Below the pieces are notes generated by a model, which was not told the DNA's origin, ran no database searches, and saw nothing but the letters and a program-made list of their open reading frames with translations. Made by a program: the position numbers and the translations under genes. Below are positions 2,168-57,692 of a stretch of 64,000 nt of DNA, one piece after another. Positions within the stretch are counted from its first letter, which is position 1, and the number at the start of each line of letters is the position of its first letter. Source of the DNA: Lutimonas halocynthiae (GTDB lineage Bacteria > Bacteroidota > Bacteroidia > Flavobacteriales > Flavobacteriaceae); NCBI RefSeq assembly GCF_030409835.1, contig NZ_JAUFQO010000004.1, positions 186,001 to 250,000 on the forward strand, written 5' to 3'.

Positions 2168-3334
2168 ATGAAATCCTTTCTTACGACCCTAGTCCTTCTG
2201 CTATTGGCAGAATTTTCTTATGCCCAATATACAGAGGTGATTAACTCCCGAAGGCCGGGATATTCAGACAGTCCATATAGTGTGGGAACCAAAGTCTATC
2301 AGGTTGAAGCAGGTCTATTTTATAAAAATGTCGGCGGGTATCTCTATTACGACCCCATCCTCGAAGAAACTTTTGATTATAGTGCTTCCAGTTTTGGTTC
2401 AGATATTACGTTTAGAACCGGCCAATTTTTCGAACAATTAGAATTTCTTCTGGATATGGCAATTGTCAGCGAAAGCAGAGACTATACAAGACCAGATGAA
2501 GTTAGCGAATCCGCCTTCGGATTTAGTAAATTGACCTTAGGTGCCAAATACATGGTTTACAAACCTAAGTATACAGATAAAACAAAAGAAATAAGAAGTT
2601 GGGAAGCCAGACATAGTTTTGACAAAAGAAGACTTATTCCTGCAGTAGGAGTTTATGCTGGTTTAAATACGAACTTATTGACTGAATTACATAAAAATCA
2701 AGAAGGAATCAGCCCTAGGTTTGGACTTTACACACAGAATGATCTTTCAAACAGGCTGATTGTCTTATTGAATTTCATTGCTGATAAAGCTTTTACCAAT
2801 GAAGCCGAAAACTCATATATCATTACGGTTACTTACACCTTGGCCGAAAAATGGTCAATTTTCGGAGAAAATCAGGGCTTTTATAGGAAAAATGTTCCTA
2901 ACGATTATCAATTCGGAGCCGGAGGTGCATACCTGATCAATCCCAACATGCAAGCCGATTTCTCTGGGCGAATGATCTTTGATGAACGCGGTGATAATAC
3001 TTATATTATCGGTGGCGGGATATCATGGAGACTCGATAAGCACAAGGATAAAATAATCGTTGGAAAAACCGACAATAACGAAGAAGGCGCAGCCAAGGAA
3101 AAGAAAAGCTTCCTTAATACCATTACGTTTGGCTTATTTGCAGGAGGCAAATCTTCAAATAATGGAAAAATGCGTGATGTAAAGAGTTCTAAGGTTAAAA
3201 CAAGAGATATTGAAGCTCCTGTAAACAAAAAAGCGCAAAAAGCAAGGAAGAAACAAAACGACAGACTGGTCAAAGAACAAAAACAAAAAGAAAAAGCTCA
3301 AAAAAAATACAATAAAAAATCAGAAAACGACTAA
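2168..3334 (+). CDS. Outer-membrane transporter-like protein (phenol MetA-degradation-pathway type)
   Basis: 388 residues beginning with a clear signal peptide (MKSFLTTLVLLLLAEFSYAQ). It is followed by about 260 residues rich in alternating aromatic and polar residues, typical of a beta barrel, with phrases such as NSRRPGYSDSPYSVGTKVYQ that occur in the transporter-like MetA family. The last 80 residues are unusual: a lysine-rich, low-complexity tail (KKAQKARKKQNDRLVKEQKQ) that would lie outside the barrel. An upstream in-frame TTG at 2162 is ignored because the ATG at 2168 gives a normal signal peptide. The GNAT-fold gene starts 9 bp downstream. No substrate is evident. Confidence 0.7.
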   Translation: MKSFLTTLVLLLLAEFSYAQYTEVINSRRPGYSDSPYSVGTKVYQVEAGLFYKNVGGYLYYDPILEETFDYSASSFGSDITFRTGQFFEQLEFLLDMAIVSESRDYTRPDEVSESAFGFSKLTLGAKYMVYKPKYTDKTKEIRSWEARHSFDKRRLIPAVGVYAGLNTNLLTELHKNQEGISPRFGLYTQNDLSNRLIVLLNFIADKAFTNEAENSYIITVTYTLAEKWSIFGENQGFYRKNVPNDYQFGAGGAYLINPNMQADFSGRMIFDERGDNTYIIGGGISWRLDKHKDKIIVGKTDNNEEGAAKEKKSFLNTITFGLFAGGKSSNNGKMRDVKSSKVKTRDIEAPVNKKAQKARKKQNDRLVKEQKQKEKAQKKYNKKSEND

Positions 3335-25785: not shown

Positions 25786-26274
25786 ATGAAAACACTATTC
25801 ATTGTGCGTCATGCCAAATCCTCCTGGGAGTACGAAGGCATAAAAGACATAGACAGACCCCTCAAAAAAAGAGGGATCAATGATGCCTATTTAATTTCCA
25901 GGGAATTACAGAAAAAAATTGAAACGCCTTCAGTGTTCGTTGCCAGTTGTGCCAACAGGGCGCTGCATACCGCGATGATTTTCAGCTATGCCTTTAACTA
26001 TCCCCTAGCAAATTTAAAGATCAGTAAATCGCTGTATAGTTTTAGCGATGGCTACCTTATCAAAACGGTAAAAGCATTAGACAACGGTTTTGATTCAGCC
26101 ATTATCTTCAGTCATGATCACGGAATCAGTGATTTTGTGAATAAATTTGGAAACAAAGAAATACATCACGTTCCAACTTGCGGAGTAGTAGCCATAGAAT
26201 TTGATACCAAACATTGGAAAAACATAAAGGACGGTAAAACCTTATTCACAGAATTCCCAAAATATTATAAGTGA
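25786..26274 (+). CDS. sixA: SixA-like histidine phosphatase
   Basis: 162 residues, the size of SixA. The phosphohistidine motif LFIVRHAKSSWEY is at the N-terminus, with conserved Arg in ANRALHTAMIF and the second catalytic His in IIFSHDHGISDF. SixA removes phosphate from histidine on phosphorelay or PTS proteins; without enzymatic data the target is open. It is convergent with the L,D-transpeptidase gene; a repeat array fills the 84 bp between them. Confidence 0.88.
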   Translation: MKTLFIVRHAKSSWEYEGIKDIDRPLKKRGINDAYLISRELQKKIETPSVFVASCANRALHTAMIFSYAFNYPLANLKISKSLYSFSDGYLIKTVKALDNGFDSAIIFSHDHGISDFVNKFGNKEIHHVPTCGVVAIEFDTKHWKNIKDGKTLFTEFPKYYK

Positions 26275-26305
26275 TTTTAACATTGGATTCAGGGTTGAGG
26301 GTATA

Positions 26306-26365
26306 ATTCCTCATCACCTCACTTCCGATCACCTCACTTCCGATCACCTCACCTGCGATCACCTC
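26306..26365 (-). repeat. 15-bp-period repeat array 1 (four units)
   Basis: Read on the minus strand, four units of a 9-bp core plus 6-bp spacer: GAGGTGATC-GCAGGT, GAGGTGATC-GGAAGT twice, then GAGGTGATG-AGGAAT. Total exactly 60 bp. The first unit contains the TGA stop of the L,D-transpeptidase gene (26359-26361). The same family recurs at 32218 and 56719. Confidence 0.92.
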
Positions 26366-27999
26366 ACTTTGTTAAAGTGAAACGGCTCCTTCAAAGCAGT
26401 TATAACTGCCTTATCCCGTTTATAAACATCTTTCATAAACATGAGATTATTGTCTTGATCTACAGCAGCTGTAAGATAAATCAGATAGATATTTACAGGT
26501 TTAGGTAATGTGATTGTCGTTGTTTTACCTGACTTTAATATTTCATTTATCTTATCCATATTCCAGACGTCAGGGTCATCCATCAAACTCATCATCAATC
26601 CCCATTTGTCTTCAGTTCTAATACATCCATGGCTAAATGCCCTGTCTTGTCGGTTGAACAATCCTCTTGAAGGTGTATCATGAAGGTATACAGCATATTT
26701 ATTTGGAAACATGAATTTAACCTCTCCCAGTGCATTCCACGGACCTGCTTTTTGTCTTATGATAAACGGGAAATTACCCCTAGAATACTGGTTCCAGTCA
26801 ATGGTAGAAGGATCTAAAATCTTTCCGTTTCTATCCATGACTTCCATATGCTTCGCTGCCAGATAGCCAGGGTCCTTCTTTAATTTTGGTAAGGTCTCAT
26901 GCGTAGAAATAGAATAGGGCAAAGTCCAAGTAGGATTCATGTCGATATATTTCATAACACCTTTAAACACCGGAGTTTCTTTATGAAACTTCCCAACGAT
27001 TACTCTTGAATCAAAAACTTCCTTTTTATTTGTTATCCGCTTAACATGAAAACCAGCAATATTAACTATTAGAAAATCATCATCAGGATGTTGAAAAATC
27101 CATCTGGTTCTTTCCAAATTCAAAATGATCATATCTATTCTGTCTTCAATTGGAACTCTCATTTGTTCTATGGTTCCTTTACCAATTACGCCATCGCTGG
27201 TAAGTTTATGTCTGACTTGAAAATCCTTAACCGCTGCCTCAACAATCGTATCAAATACTTCCTCATTCTCTACCGAATATTTCTTTAGGTCACCCACCGC
27301 CATTAAATAATTTCTTATCTCAACTACACGTGCCGATGTATCACCAGGTTTTAATGTTTCTCCTTCACTAACTAAAGGCCATCCCCCTTCTGCAGCCTCA
27401 GTTCGCAATTTCTTCAATTGCAGTTTCATGAGTTTATACATATAATGGGTTGGCTTAAATTCTTCTAAGACTACCTTTATTCTTTTATTATGAAGTGTTG
27501 CGGTCAAAAGACTATCAGGATTTGAAGGGCCTTCATTACGCTCTACATCCCAGGTTTTTCTGAGATCAGATTGTTCTAGTTTTCCTTCCATAAGATGGGA
27601 TGCATAAAGAATCAAGGCATCCGTCATTAAAAGGTCCAGATCTGCACGTTCTTGATGACTTAATTTACCTTTTTTGGATTTATCCGTAAGAAGCTTAATC
27701 ATCTCAAGGTGGTAATCATTAGGGCTTAATCCTTCATCAAAAGAAGATTCCAAGCTCTCAATAAGGTCTTTTTTATTTTTAGAATTGTTCCAGGCTGGTT
27801 CAAAATCTCTGTTTGAATAAAATTGAGGAAGTTCCTCTTGAGAAAACAACTCAATCCCATTAACAGCTACAACGTTTTGCCCCTCTTCTGAAAGAACCTT
27901 GCTTTCAAGAACCTGTTCTACAGTTTGTTCCTGGGCATTGATTGAAGTCGATGTGCTAATAAAAATAAAGAAAAGTACTAAAATTTTTAATTTGGTCAT
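26359..27999 (-). CDS. L,D-transpeptidase (YcbB-type, YkuD domain)
   Basis: 546 residues from the ATG at 27999, chosen because it gives a signal peptide (KLKILVLFFIFISTSTSINAQ); the frame extends 12 codons further without a better start. Order of parts: N-terminal scaffold domain (about 50-200), a peptidoglycan-binding domain (about 230-300, KDFQVRHKLTSDGVIGKGTI), and a YkuD catalytic domain (about 315-480) with the active site FSHGCIRTEDKWGL (catalytic Cys). It forms 3-3 cross-links or anchors proteins to peptidoglycan in the periplasm. Its stop codon lies inside repeat array 1. Confidence 0.92.
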   Translation of the reverse strand: MTKLKILVLFFIFISTSTSINAQEQTVEQVLESKVLSEEGQNVVAVNGIELFSQEELPQFYSNRDFEPAWNNSKNKKDLIESLESSFDEGLSPNDYHLEMIKLLTDKSKKGKLSHQERADLDLLMTDALILYASHLMEGKLEQSDLRKTWDVERNEGPSNPDSLLTATLHNKRIKVVLEEFKPTHYMYKLMKLQLKKLRTEAAEGGWPLVSEGETLKPGDTSARVVEIRNYLMAVGDLKKYSVENEEVFDTIVEAAVKDFQVRHKLTSDGVIGKGTIEQMRVPIEDRIDMIILNLERTRWIFQHPDDDFLIVNIAGFHVKRITNKKEVFDSRVIVGKFHKETPVFKGVMKYIDMNPTWTLPYSISTHETLPKLKKDPGYLAAKHMEVMDRNGKILDPSTIDWNQYSRGNFPFIIRQKAGPWNALGEVKFMFPNKYAVYLHDTPSRGLFNRQDRAFSHGCIRTEDKWGLMMSLMDDPDVWNMDKINEILKSGKTTTITLPKPVNIYLIYLTAAVDQDNNLMFMKDVYKRDKAVITALKEPFHFNKVR

Positions 28000-28172
28000 G
28001 ATAGGTTTCGTTGAATGAAAAACAAAAATATTCAATAATCCTTAAAAACGCACACGATCTTTCCCTTAAGTTTCATTATCTATTATAGCTGACTTTAAGA
28101 TCTCTATTTTAACCTGTCGCTCCAAGCTAAAAATTTTTCTATATTAGTTGACCTTATCAAAGCAGCAACGAA

Positions 28173-30256: not shown

Positions 30257-32167
30257 ATGAAATCCTTACAAATCAACACTTTTAAAGAATACAAAGAGAA
30301 ATATGAACAAAGTGTCACTGACCCAGAGGGCTTTTGGGCGGAAGTTGCTGAACATTTTCTATGGCAGAAAAAATGGGACAAGGTATTGGATTGGGATTTT
30401 TCTAAACCCGAAATTAAATGGTTTGAGGGCGCAAAATTAAATATTGCTGAAAACTGTCTCGATCGGCATTTGGAAACCTTGGGAAATAAAACTGCCATTA
30501 TCTGGGAGCCAAACGATCCGGACGAAGAGTCAAGATACATTACTTATCGCCAACTTTTTGTAAAAGTATCTCGGTTTGCAAATGTGCTGAAAAACAATGG
30601 CATTAAAAAAGGCGATCGCGTATGTTTATATATGCCTATGATTCCTGAATTGGCTATAGCGATGCTCGCTTGTGCCAGAATTGGAGCCGTTCATTCAATT
30701 GTTTTTGCAGGTTTTTCTTCTTCAGCTTTATCGAGTAGGATAAACGATTCTAAATGCAAAATGCTCATCACGGCAAATGAAGTATATAGAGGTAATAAAC
30801 CTATTAATTTGAAAAAAGTATGTGATGAGGCTTTAAAAAATACGCCTTCAGTTGAGAACGTTATTGTTTACAGAAGAACTGTGGAACCTACTGAGATGAC
30901 TCCGGGAAGAGACAAATTCTGGTTTGATGAATTGCAAAAGGTTGATACATCTTGTGAGGCAGAAGCTATGGATGCTGAAGACTTACTTTTTATATTATAT
31001 ACGTCCGGATCAACAGGAAAACCTAAAGGAATGGTTCATACCACCGGAGGTTATATGGTAGGGTCAACGTATACTTTTGAAAACGTGTTTCAATGTAAAA
31101 AGGATGATATTTATTGGTGTACTGCAGATATTGGTTGGATAACGGGTCACTCTTATATTATTTACGGCCCCTTATGCGCAGGAGCAACAACTGTGATGTT
31201 TGAAGGAGTTCCTTCTTTCCCTGATTATGGAAGATTTTGGGAAATTGTTGACAAACTCAATGTGACGCATTTTTATACGGCACCAACTGCGATCAGGGCT
31301 TTGGCAAAACACCCATTAAGTCTTGTTGAAAAGCATGACCTTTCAAGTTTAAAAGTATTGGGTTCAGTTGGAGAGCCTATAAATGAAGAGGCATGGCACT
31401 GGTATAATGACAATATTGGAAAAACGAAGTGCCCGATAGTAGATACCTGGTGGCAAACAGAAACGGGAGCCATGATGATTTCACCAATTGCCGGAATCAC
31501 GCCTACAAGACCTACGTTTGCTACCCTCCCATTACCTGGCGTGCAACCTGTATTAATGGATGAACATGGAAATGAAGTTACTCAAAAAAGCATGGAACCT
31601 TCCGAGGGCAGATTGGCAATGAAAGCCCCGTGGCCATCGATAGCTAGAACCATTTACGGAGACCACCAAAGGTATAAAGACACTTATTTCTCAACCTATA
31701 AGAATATGTATTTCACTGGTGACGGAGCTTATCGCGATGCAAGTGGTAATTATAGAATTACAGGTAGAGTTGATGATGTTGTGATCGTATCTGGGCATAA
31801 TCTGGGCACAGCTCCTATTGAAAATGCAATTGATGAACACGCTGATATTGTTGAATGCGCCGTGGTAGGATTCCCACATGATGTGAAGGGAAATGCCCTT
31901 TATGCTTATGTCACCAAATATGATAACTGTACAACATCTGATGAGGATCTAAGAGTTGAAATTAATAAGCTAATCGCCAGTACTATTGGTGCCATTGCAA
32001 AACTCGACAAAGTTCAATTCGTGTCAGGACTTCCAAAGACCAGGTCAGGAAAGATCATGCGTAGAATTCTCAGGAAAATCGCCTCTAATGAAGGTGACAA
32101 TCTCGGAGACATATCAACGCTTTTAAATCCTGAGGTGGTTGAAGAGATAAAAGCAGGGGTAATTTAA
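30257..32167 (+). CDS. acs: Acetate--CoA ligase (AMP-forming)
   Basis: 636 residues, full-length Acs. The AMP-binding motif is YTSGSTGKPKGMVHT (about residue 250), with WWQTETGAMMISPI (about 400), the hinge ITGRVDDVVIVSGHN and the C-terminal KTRSGKIMRRILRKIA with the lysine that is acetylated in homologues. The segment SGHNLGTAPIE differs from the Arg-containing SGHRLGTAEIE of enterobacterial Acs. It activates acetate to acetyl-CoA via acetyl-AMP. The upstream symporter pair supports uptake of the substrate. Repeat array 2 lies 51 bp after its stop. Confidence 0.93.
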   Translation: MKSLQINTFKEYKEKYEQSVTDPEGFWAEVAEHFLWQKKWDKVLDWDFSKPEIKWFEGAKLNIAENCLDRHLETLGNKTAIIWEPNDPDEESRYITYRQLFVKVSRFANVLKNNGIKKGDRVCLYMPMIPELAIAMLACARIGAVHSIVFAGFSSSALSSRINDSKCKMLITANEVYRGNKPINLKKVCDEALKNTPSVENVIVYRRTVEPTEMTPGRDKFWFDELQKVDTSCEAEAMDAEDLLFILYTSGSTGKPKGMVHTTGGYMVGSTYTFENVFQCKKDDIYWCTADIGWITGHSYIIYGPLCAGATTVMFEGVPSFPDYGRFWEIVDKLNVTHFYTAPTAIRALAKHPLSLVEKHDLSSLKVLGSVGEPINEEAWHWYNDNIGKTKCPIVDTWWQTETGAMMISPIAGITPTRPTFATLPLPGVQPVLMDEHGNEVTQKSMEPSEGRLAMKAPWPSIARTIYGDHQRYKDTYFSTYKNMYFTGDGAYRDASGNYRITGRVDDVVIVSGHNLGTAPIENAIDEHADIVECAVVGFPHDVKGNALYAYVTKYDNCTTSDEDLRVEINKLIASTIGAIAKLDKVQFVSGLPKTRSGKIMRRILRKIASNEGDNLGDISTLLNPEVVEEIKAGVI

Positions 32168-32217
32168 AAGTATTTAAGATTCTGACTTTTTACTTATGAC
32201 TTATCATAGTGATCCCC

Positions 32218-32277
32218 GAGGTGATCGGAAGTGAGGTGATCGGAAGTGAGGTGATCGGAAGTGAGGTGATGAGAAAT
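32218..32277 (+). repeat. 15-bp-period repeat array 2 (four units)
   Basis: Four units on the plus strand: GAGGTGATC-GGAAGT three times, then GAGGTGATG-AGAAAT, exactly 60 bp. It lies after acs in the same orientation as acs, as array 1 does relative to the L,D-transpeptidase gene. The last unit is the same variant (GAGGTGATG-AGRAAT) as in array 1. Confidence 0.92.
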
Positions 32278-32352
32278 GAGCAGTGAGATACTTTCTTTTG
32301 CAAATTATTTTAAATCCTGTCGTGAATATTTTTCGATTTTTCATCGGTTTTA

Positions 32353-56603: not shown

Positions 56604-56718
56604 AGATAACTTTCTTGAGATAATGAAGTATAAAAATAAAGATTTAATGAACTAATTCCTAGGGAAATCACTCTTTAAACCCTACGATAAAAATCTGAAG
56701 ATTGACGGTTTCTCTTGC

Positions 56719-56817
56719 GAGGTGATCGCAACTGATCACCTCACCTCCGATCACCTCACTTCCGATCACCTCACTTCCGAACCCTTCGCGAGTGAAGCCT
56801 TCAGCTGCGAACCCTTC
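56719..56817 (-). repeat. 15-bp-period repeat array 3 (seven cores, two core types)
   Basis: Read on the minus strand, seven 9-bp cores sit at an exact 15-bp period: GAAGGGTTC, GAAGGCTTC, GAAGGGTTC, then GAGGTGATC three times, then the inverted core GATCACCTC. Spacers are 6 bp (GCAGCT, ACTCGC, GGAAGT, GGAAGT, GGAGGT, AGTTGC). The last two cores form a GAGGTGATC/GATCACCTC hairpin. It lies 11 bp after the esterase stop. Confidence 0.9.
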
Positions 56818-56828
56818 GGAAAAAAATA

Positions 56829-57692
56829 TTAATATTGATGAAAAGCCTGAGAGATAAATTCTAAAACTTTCGGAAGAGATTCTCTCCAATAAGTCCAATT
56901 ATGAGCTCCGTCTCTAACGCGATATTCATGTGGTATTTCTCTCTTTTTCATTTCAATATGCACCAAACTATTCCCTTCAAAAAGGAAATCATCATCACCA
57001 CAATCAATATACCATCTCACCGATGAAACCTTATCCTTAGGCATGTTTTTAACCAATTCAACGGCATTGTATTGAGCAAAATAATTTTGTAATACTTCAT
57101 CTGAATAGGTTGCTTTTGAGTTTGCCTCGATATTTCCTTTTAAATCTTCTATAGTTAAAGGCCCTACATAAGCGCTCAGGGGTGCCGCTGAAGAAAATAA
57201 TTCAGGATGGTGCAAAGCATAAATAAATGAACCTCCTCCACCCATAGATAGGCCTGAAATTGCTCTGAATCTTTTTTCTTTCTTAATACGGTATTGCTTT
57301 TCTACATGAGGCATGAGCTCTTCAAAAAAGAAGTCTTCATAATTCCATTCTCCGTTAATATCATTATTATAACCTCTTTGGCCGGTATGAGCATCGGGCA
57401 TAACAATGATCATGGGTGTTGCTTTTCCTGATTTAATTGCCTTATCAGTTATGCGAAGTACCTCTCCAAATTGAACCCAACCAGTTTGATCATCTCCTGA
57501 TCCATGCAATAAATAAAGTACGGGATAGCTTCTTGACGAAGATTCATAATCAGGAGGTAAATAAATGGCAAACTTACGATCAGCGTTCAAAATTTCACTT
57601 TTCATAGTCAAGTCATCAAACACTTTTCCATGCTGACAATAACCGGAATACGCTGTAAAAAAAAACAATAGAAATGCGATACTATTCTTCAT
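56829..57692 (-). CDS. Secreted alpha/beta-hydrolase esterase (CE1-like)
   Basis: 287 residues with a signal peptide (SIAFLLFFFTAYSGYCQ). The esterase fold shows YPVLYLLHGSGDDQTGWVQF, the nucleophile elbow GLSMGGGGSF (Ser about 150) and the catalytic His in DGAHNWTYWRESL. This is the putative-esterase/CE1-type family that includes feruloyl and acetylxylan esterases. The TolB-like gene lies 27 bp upstream, and repeat array 3 follows the stop. Confidence 0.9.
   Translation of the reverse strand: MKNSIAFLLFFFTAYSGYCQHGKVFDDLTMKSEILNADRKFAIYLPPDYESSSRSYPVLYLLHGSGDDQTGWVQFGEVLRITDKAIKSGKATPMIIVMPDAHTGQRGYNNDINGEWNYEDFFFEELMPHVEKQYRIKKEKRFRAISGLSMGGGGSFIYALHHPELFSSAAPLSAYVGPLTIEDLKGNIEANSKATYSDEVLQNYFAQYNAVELVKNMPKDKVSSVRWYIDCGDDDFLFEGNSLVHIEMKKREIPHEYRVRDGAHNWTYWRESLPKVLEFISQAFHQY

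Follow-up and report, generated by a model that had tools for sequence, protein, structure and literature searches.

The question raised by this locus is what a short tandem array is doing at the very end of an L,D-transpeptidase gene of Lutimonas halocynthiae, where it contains the stop codon of the gene itself. The window analysed here is a 64-kb stretch corresponding to positions 186001-250000 of contig C16 in genome G000 (3.99 Mb, 20 contigs). The first-pass annotation of this sequence had described four 15-bp units covering 60 bp, and had proposed for this and two further arrays either a role of the RNA at transcript 3' ends or a mobile element that inserts there. The 15-bp array was confirmed on the minus strand, where it runs from 26365 to 26312 in the order GAGGTGATC gcaggt GAGGTGATC ggaagt GAGGTGATC ggaagt GAGGTGATG (59.7 bits with a lattice profile), and the TGA stop (26361-26359, minus strand) of the L,D-transpeptidase gene (26359-28035, minus strand; Pfam domains Scaffold, PG_binding_1 and YkuD) indeed lies inside its first word. 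There are four words, as had been described, but the fourth ends in G instead of C (GAGGTGATG), and the array extends over 54 bp, the figure of 60 bp including one further 6-bp step. Its predicted folding is weak (-2.6 on the plus strand and -9.6 on the minus strand). The flank beyond its right end, aggaattataccctcaac (26294-26311, minus strand), fits only in part a loose right-end motif of the family, since it carries RG followed by ACCCTCA and not RGWWW. Because array 1 lies between convergent genes, it is also only 37 bp from the stop codon of a histidine phosphatase gene (25786-26274, plus strand).

Array 2 (32218-32271, plus strand, 58.2 bits) is likewise composed of three copies of GAGGTGATC and a terminal GAGGTGATG, with ggaagt as every spacer, and begins 50 bp after the stop of the acetyl-CoA synthetase gene acs (30257-32167, plus strand). 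It hardly folds on the plus strand (-7.6), and its right-end flank agaaatgagcagtgagat (32272-32289, plus strand) fits RGWWW without the CYTCA part. Between the acs stop and this array, a degenerate low-complexity 7-bp repeat (TGACTTA) was observed at 32183-32204. Array 3 (56719-56817, minus strand) is a mosaic of seven listed words, six of them on the minus strand, which read on the plus strand as GAGGTGATC, three copies of GATCACCTC, GAACCCTTC, GAAGCCTTC and GAACCCTTC; with a marginal eighth word at 56704-56712 it scores 110.6 bits, and it stands 11 bp from the stop of a putative esterase gene (56829-57692, minus strand). Given that array 3 includes one flipped word as well as the other words GAACCCTTC and GAAGCCTTC, the family has several words, of which GAGGTGATC is just one. 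When one mismatch is tolerated, the window contains 25 occurrences of GAGGTGATC, where 8.4 are expected, and none of 100 shuffles has as many. Under the lattice profile, which was trained on the family itself with arrays 1-3 included, the window arrays score 58-111 bits, whereas 20 dinucleotide shuffles of the window reach no more than 15.1, and no fourth array at 15 bits or more was found in the 64 kb.

In the window and the other regions fetched from G000, 34 arrays with two or more of the listed words were identified. All but one consist of 9-bp words and 6-bp spacers at a 15-bp step, with the lattice consensus SAnSnSnTS+RSnnSY and with swappable words in either orientation. The exception, L037, has two halves out of phase; it was omitted from the token counts (33 of the 34 arrays, 156 words) and is included, partly out of register, in a count of 164 words. 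Since the skeleton of the lattice is the same on both strands, a word or a spacer can be inverted without breaking the 15-bp beat. Pattern searches of the whole genome detected 24 exact word pairs, 83 word pairs matching the general form, compared with 4 for a reversed control pattern, and inverted word pairs at 12 places against none for the control. Five pattern matches with words and spacers unlike the lattice were not fetched (C1:449728, C8:830399, C16:334677, C16:821929 and C16:1028832), and two fetched regions (L033 and L049) were without an array by the word list.

Counted on either strand of the 33 arrays, the most frequent words are GAGGTGATC (60), GAACCCTTC (28), CATCACCTC (19) and GAAGCCTTC (9), and the most frequent spacers are GGAGGT/ACCTCC (49 of 123) and GGAAGT/ACTTCC (27 of 123). 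Identical words are adjacent 32 times in these arrays versus 12-15 times in token shuffles, none of 5000 shuffles reaching 32, indicating tandem duplication. In 18 of the 34 arrays there is an exactly inverted pair of words or some longer hairpin, the best being a perfect 24-bp stem; by the rule used, the other 16, including arrays 1 and 2, have none, and several of these fold into shorter hairpins. No Rfam family was found over any array in the seven sources scanned (the window and six loci); at L057:1-40 a SAM-II riboswitch match, cut by the end of the stretch, scored just over the gathering threshold. The first-pass annotation knew of no described Bacteroidota family with this unit, and we likewise found no description of this repeat family in the open-licence literature, by which it looks like an undescribed one.

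To place the arrays relative to genes, we relied on gene calls from our own ORF scorer, by which 32 of the 34 arrays could be classified: 13 lie in convergent, 16 in tandem and 3 in divergent gaps, the remaining 2 being at contig ends. Convergent gaps are over-represented, both against the gaps of the window (7 of 58, P 4e-5) and against those of all fetched regions, which were themselves chosen around arrays (38 of 205, P 0.003). Divergent gaps are weakly under-represented (P 0.065), and two of the three cases (L040 and L044) involve doubtful short ORFs. Of the 16 arrays in tandem gaps, 14 are closer to the stop of the upstream gene. Altogether 29 of the 32 arrays face some 3' end, which is no evidence by itself because 51 of the 58 window gaps also do. 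None of the 34 arrays is inside a long gene. Five reach into the stop or final codons of a gene (array 1, L046 8578, L050, L053 and L054), and one more (L044) overlaps a doubtful 112-aa ORF. These overlaps were counted from the gene-call scan, given that a lattice extended by SAnnnnnTS may gain an end word by chance. The bias for 3' ends that had been proposed from three arrays is thus borne out genome-wide by the convergent and tandem gaps, whereas the proposed bias for gene orientation is absent: in the 16 tandem gaps the G-rich strand is sense in 6, antisense in 7 and neutral in 3. In consequence, the reading of the window's three arrays in the direction of their genes was a coincidence and does not extend to the genome.

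These positions also bear on whether the arrays are themselves transcription terminators. Convergent gaps would suit such a role, as would the 17-24 bp hairpins into which some arrays fold. Among 42 facing 3' ends, 20 are within 25 bp of the lattice, but a GC hairpin followed by a T run is formed by the array itself at only 3 of the 42, while a separate terminator-like structure precedes the array, between it and the stop, at 11 and follows it within 100 bp at 9 (approximate counts, as the rule was simple). Together with the poor folding of arrays 1 and 2, this makes it very unlikely that the arrays act as terminators, and intrinsic terminators were rejected as a description of the family. Because separate terminators precede the array at 11 of these 3' ends and only 3 are array-formed, the notion that all arrays share one RNA role at 3' ends is weakened.

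Another reading holds that, near stop codons, the G-rich sense strands fold into two-layer G-quadruplexes, in the manner of the GGGNATC heptamers of Xanthomonas and Nostoc. As outlined in the published account, those heptamers are dispersed short tandem arrays of variable unit number, over-represented in non-coding DNA, located 0-50 bp from stop codons or overlapping them and generally not tied to mobile elements, with a G-rich, quadruplex-forming 7-bp unit that shows strand preference near ORFs (PMC4692102). Dispersed tandem arrays near or over stop codons are the closest published behaviour that we have seen to that of the present family, and arrays 1-3 and others do carry a G2+N1-7 motif on one strand. 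Nevertheless, the motif is on neither strand in 9 of the 34 arrays, no strand preference was seen in tandem gaps, and the G-quadruplex option of ViennaRNA placed none on either strand of any of the 34; the present arrays differ further from what is outlined for the heptamers in their 15-bp lattice and their exchangeable, invertible words. On these predictions a heptamer-type quadruplex repeat is very unlikely and was set aside.

The 3' tail of 16S rRNA reads ...GGATCACCTCC, and GAGGTGATC, which is more frequent than any other word in all four array-carrying species, matches nine letters of its complement. This anti-Shine-Dalgarno reading could suggest that GAGGTGATC serves as a sink for 30S ribosomes, an idea that we consider extremely improbable, as the other frequent words do not match the complement and words occur in either orientation. 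No 16S match was obtained in the G000 assembly, and the tail pattern was found in none of six genomes, the tail being not assembled, masked or different.

The history of the family is visible in relatives of the same genus. Sixteen arrays were examined there (10 in G014, 3 in G012 and 3 in G015), and 12 of them (8, 3 and 1, respectively) share their site with an array of G000; one of those in G012, at the array 3 site, was found only through a targeted syntenic stretch. The other four (L274 and L295 in G014, L270 and L271 in G015) have no clear homologous flank in the G000 loci compared. Compared genes share 83-86% protein identity between G000 and these relatives, and identity at fourfold sites is 41% for G014, 35% for G012 and 35% for G015 against 28% expected by composition (51, 36 and 10 genes, respectively, of the window and five loci, with at least 60% protein identity), indicating that silent sites are near saturation. 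The arrays have nonetheless stayed in step with the 15-bp lattice, and several orthologous ones are equal in length: L053 has 7 words in both genomes, L057a and L057b have 5 each, and L045b has 4 in each of G000, G012 and G014 once a marginal fifth G000 word is dropped. Their letter identity is 54-91%. In the five equal-length comparisons among the 12 pairs (25 word and 20 spacer pairs, one G000 array being used twice), the S/W class is conserved without exception at lattice positions 1, 2, 6, 8, 9, 11 and 14 and in 24 of 25 instances at position 4; position 11 is among the fully conserved ones although its letter is identical in just 8 of 20. The lattice form was partly a search criterion (SAnnnnnTS words and GARGnSWTC seeds), which inflates this class conservation, least so at positions 11 and 14.

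Such retention raises the main rival to the reading that we favour, namely that selection maintains the lattice because it works as a boundary element of transcription units. In this view, a protein or a folded nucleic acid would recognise the palindromic skeleton TSRSnnSYSA at 15-bp spacing and insulate convergent or neighbouring genes or protect transcript 3' ends, the n positions being free to drift. The persistence of 12 of 16 arrays at shared sites despite near-saturated silent sites, the conserved classes and the gene-end bias all agree with selection. The same sites, though, show that arrays can be lost. At the array 1 site, G014 has by eye an array of six words, unlike that of G000, 12 bp past the stop, and no array was seen in G012, G011, G013 or G015; at the array 2 site, again by eye, G014 has an eroded two-word remnant below the profile threshold and G012 is empty; at the array 3 site, compared in G012, G011 and G013, G012 has a degenerate seven-word lattice (42.9 bits) and the other two have none. 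These absences and decay argue against necessity, and they add to the lack of orientation bias, the inflated class conservation and the failure of pattern searches to find arrays in 18 of the 22 genomes of the genus. We therefore see selection for a boundary function as a possibility of about one in three. Tentatively, and with a somewhat lower expectation, the family may keep a phase-locked 15-bp skeleton at fixed gene-end sites across species near silent-site saturation, with a candidate DNA- or RNA-binding protein or copying enzyme acting on the skeleton TSRSnnSYSA and not on the continually exchanged words.

Returning to the view of the arrays as repeats tolerated at gene ends, words have changed at many of the sites that relatives share. 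When the ortholog of each of the 12 shared-site arrays was ranked by similarity among the 34 G000 arrays, it ranked 1-6 in 7 pairs and 17-24 in the other 5, so that both vertical inheritance and rewriting are seen. Word usage has also diverged, GAACCCTTC accounting for 28 of 164 words in G000 versus 1 of 52 in G014 (P 0.004). In addition, an identical 54-mer occurs with different flanks at two unrelated loci, C12:27877 and C16:311079, and because the G014 ortholog of the latter site is different, copying between sites is indicated. Persistence of the lattice at near-saturated sites exceeds what passive neutral inheritance allows and requires either frequent rewriting or selection; saturation thus argues against passive persistence and not against frequent rewriting.

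Whether the arrays are mobile was considered further from their ends. Across G000 and the relatives, 17 of 30 GAGGTGATG occurrences are in end position, versus 5 of 93 for GAGGTGATC (P 6e-9), and the flank after a terminal GAGGTGATG carries RGWWW in 12 of 17 cases and [CGT]TCA further on in 10 of 17, these 17 including orthologous ends that are not all independent. For the nine G000 ends, the information in the right-end flank is 12.0 bits versus 5.6 in shuffles, a value reached by none of 2000. The right-end flank is accordingly significant but loose, and the left end is undefined. Direct or inverted flank repeats were not significant in 33 of the 34 arrays, duplications of a few bases being below the reach of the test. 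The exception is the array at C16:748547, flanked on both sides by a direct gene-end duplication of about 70 bp (L056 ~2970-3175, corresponding to C16:748470-748675). By eye, its upstream copy belongs to the gene and its downstream copy resembles a remnant. By this flank test, the family does not show the terminal inverted repeats and target-site duplication of MITEs. The mobile-element proposal of the first-pass annotation is in part sustained, by the loose right-end motif and the identical 54-mer at two loci, but the searches made here revealed neither a mobiliser nor a general target duplication.

The arrays might in principle be REP/BIME elements, mobilised by a REP-associated tyrosine transposase (RAYT). 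REP/BIMEs are outlined as intergenic, species-specific mosaic repeats with units in both orientations, proposed to be non-autonomous (PMC2817692), and the present arrays resemble that outline in being short, partly palindromic intergenic mosaics with words in both orientations, 18 of the 34 with an inverted pair or longer hairpin. On the other hand, about half (16 of 34) are without such a palindrome, though several of them fold shorter ones, their units do not alternate palindromically (32 identical against 6 inverted neighbours), and the unit length differs. The Y1_Tnp domain of RAYT/IS200 transposases (PF01797) had no match in any of the carriers, G000, G012, G014 and G015, which are 99.9%, 90%, 84% and 79% complete, and yet matched in 8 of the 18 genus genomes in which arrays were not detected. 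This phyletic pattern disfavours RAYT-driven REP, which we regard as highly improbable here. A retro-element mobiliser was rejected on similar grounds: among the 22 genus genomes reverse transcriptase (RVT_1) matches only in G000 and G021, hence in one of the four carriers, and does not track the arrays. The G000 match (40 bits) is within a 505-aa open frame at L299 (C16:822749-823216, minus strand).

The family is narrowly distributed. In an order-wide draw of 395 genomes, which excluded other members of the genus, G000 had 50 occurrences of the two-word lattice pattern and four other genomes had one apiece, with words that resemble chance. Within the genus (22 genomes including G000), arrays were identified by pattern in four, G000, G012, G014 and G015, and one or two chance-like matches were found in each of G001, G008 and G020. 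Absence in each relative is provisional because most of them are incomplete; in G011 and G013, both 100% complete, neither patterns nor the profile, applied to 60 kb and 58 kb of syntenic sequence, detected an array. A contig scan found at least 115 two-word stretches, and among the matches listed three had lattice spacers (L064, L093 and L090), all from Flavobacteriaceae MAGs. Stretches of the array loci of G015 and G014 are identical to Flavobacteriaceae MAG sequence (JAUXCI01, CSMAG_2821; CAJQNF01). Spread by phage or plasmid was rejected, since none of 26 viral stretches with the two-word pattern had a lattice spacer and searches of one 99-bp array against phages and one 114-bp array against plasmids gave no match.

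Taken with evenly balanced confidence, our preferred explanation is that the arrays belong to a family of small intergenic repeats, modular and non-autonomous, that is restricted to one lineage, has a BOX/BIME-like layout and is tolerated at gene ends. Pneumococcal BOX elements have a modular A-(B)n-C layout and are the closest in this respect, combining a variable number of core units with a more fixed end, although they belong to another host and differ in sequence, and the present family has 15-bp units with swappable words, an undefined left end and no known mobiliser. Direct observations are the lattice, its location at gene ends, the word differences at shared sites, the tendency seen at right ends and the identical 54-mer; on these the following scheme would build. 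A member of the family would be a run of 9-bp words on the 15-bp lattice, those ending in GAGGTGATG tending to share the loose right-end flank. Words would multiply by tandem duplication through slippage and may be overwritten or inverted by conversion or, more conjecturally, by short-range template switching, and whole runs might occasionally be copied to new sites by an enzyme. Arrays would pile up behind stops and between convergent genes for two reasons: insertion does no harm at such places, and TGA occurs in two of the three sense-strand frames of the GAGGTGATC lattice, so that a run invading the last codons of a gene could supply its stop. No RNA function would be necessary.

Template switching between inverted repeats is described as homogenising their arms and inverting spacers (PMC8604942) and as creating and repairing hairpins (PMC8794818). 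It would preserve a palindromic skeleton, but as the main engine of the family it is not well supported, since palindromes are only mildly in excess, complementary spacer pairs are not, and adjacent inverted words are rarer than in shuffles. Specifically, there are 5 exact word-centred palindromes of 39 bp versus 2.05 in within-array shuffles (5 being reached by 9 of 5000 across-array and 210 of 5000 within-array shuffles), 10 complementary spacer pairs around a word versus 9.8 and 13.5, and 6 adjacent inverted words versus 12 and 15.

The value of the family lies in the fact that the same sites can be compared in four species, where arrays are seen to be present, absent, decayed, changed in their units or furnished with other words, so that persistence by copying can be tested against persistence by function. 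The family further illustrates how a stop codon can be supplied by a repeat at a gene end, and bacterial intergenic repeats without an identified mobiliser represent a gap in the current REP/MITE picture.

At the ends of contigs C8 and C15 (L045:11766-11954 and L048:1-204), an array and the sequence beyond it are shared up to the assembly break, the two copies being near-identical apart from a single 15-bp unit and a single flanking base. No tRNA was found in these two end loci, and the shared end may belong to an unassembled repeated operon. Congeners have other low-complexity word repeats behind gene ends, such as a ggagactgaagact... repeat downstream of the acs stop in G006 (L244) and attgaatcaataaatcatt-like runs downstream of the L,D-transpeptidase stop in G015 (L224), and gene ends in the genus may attract different repeat families.
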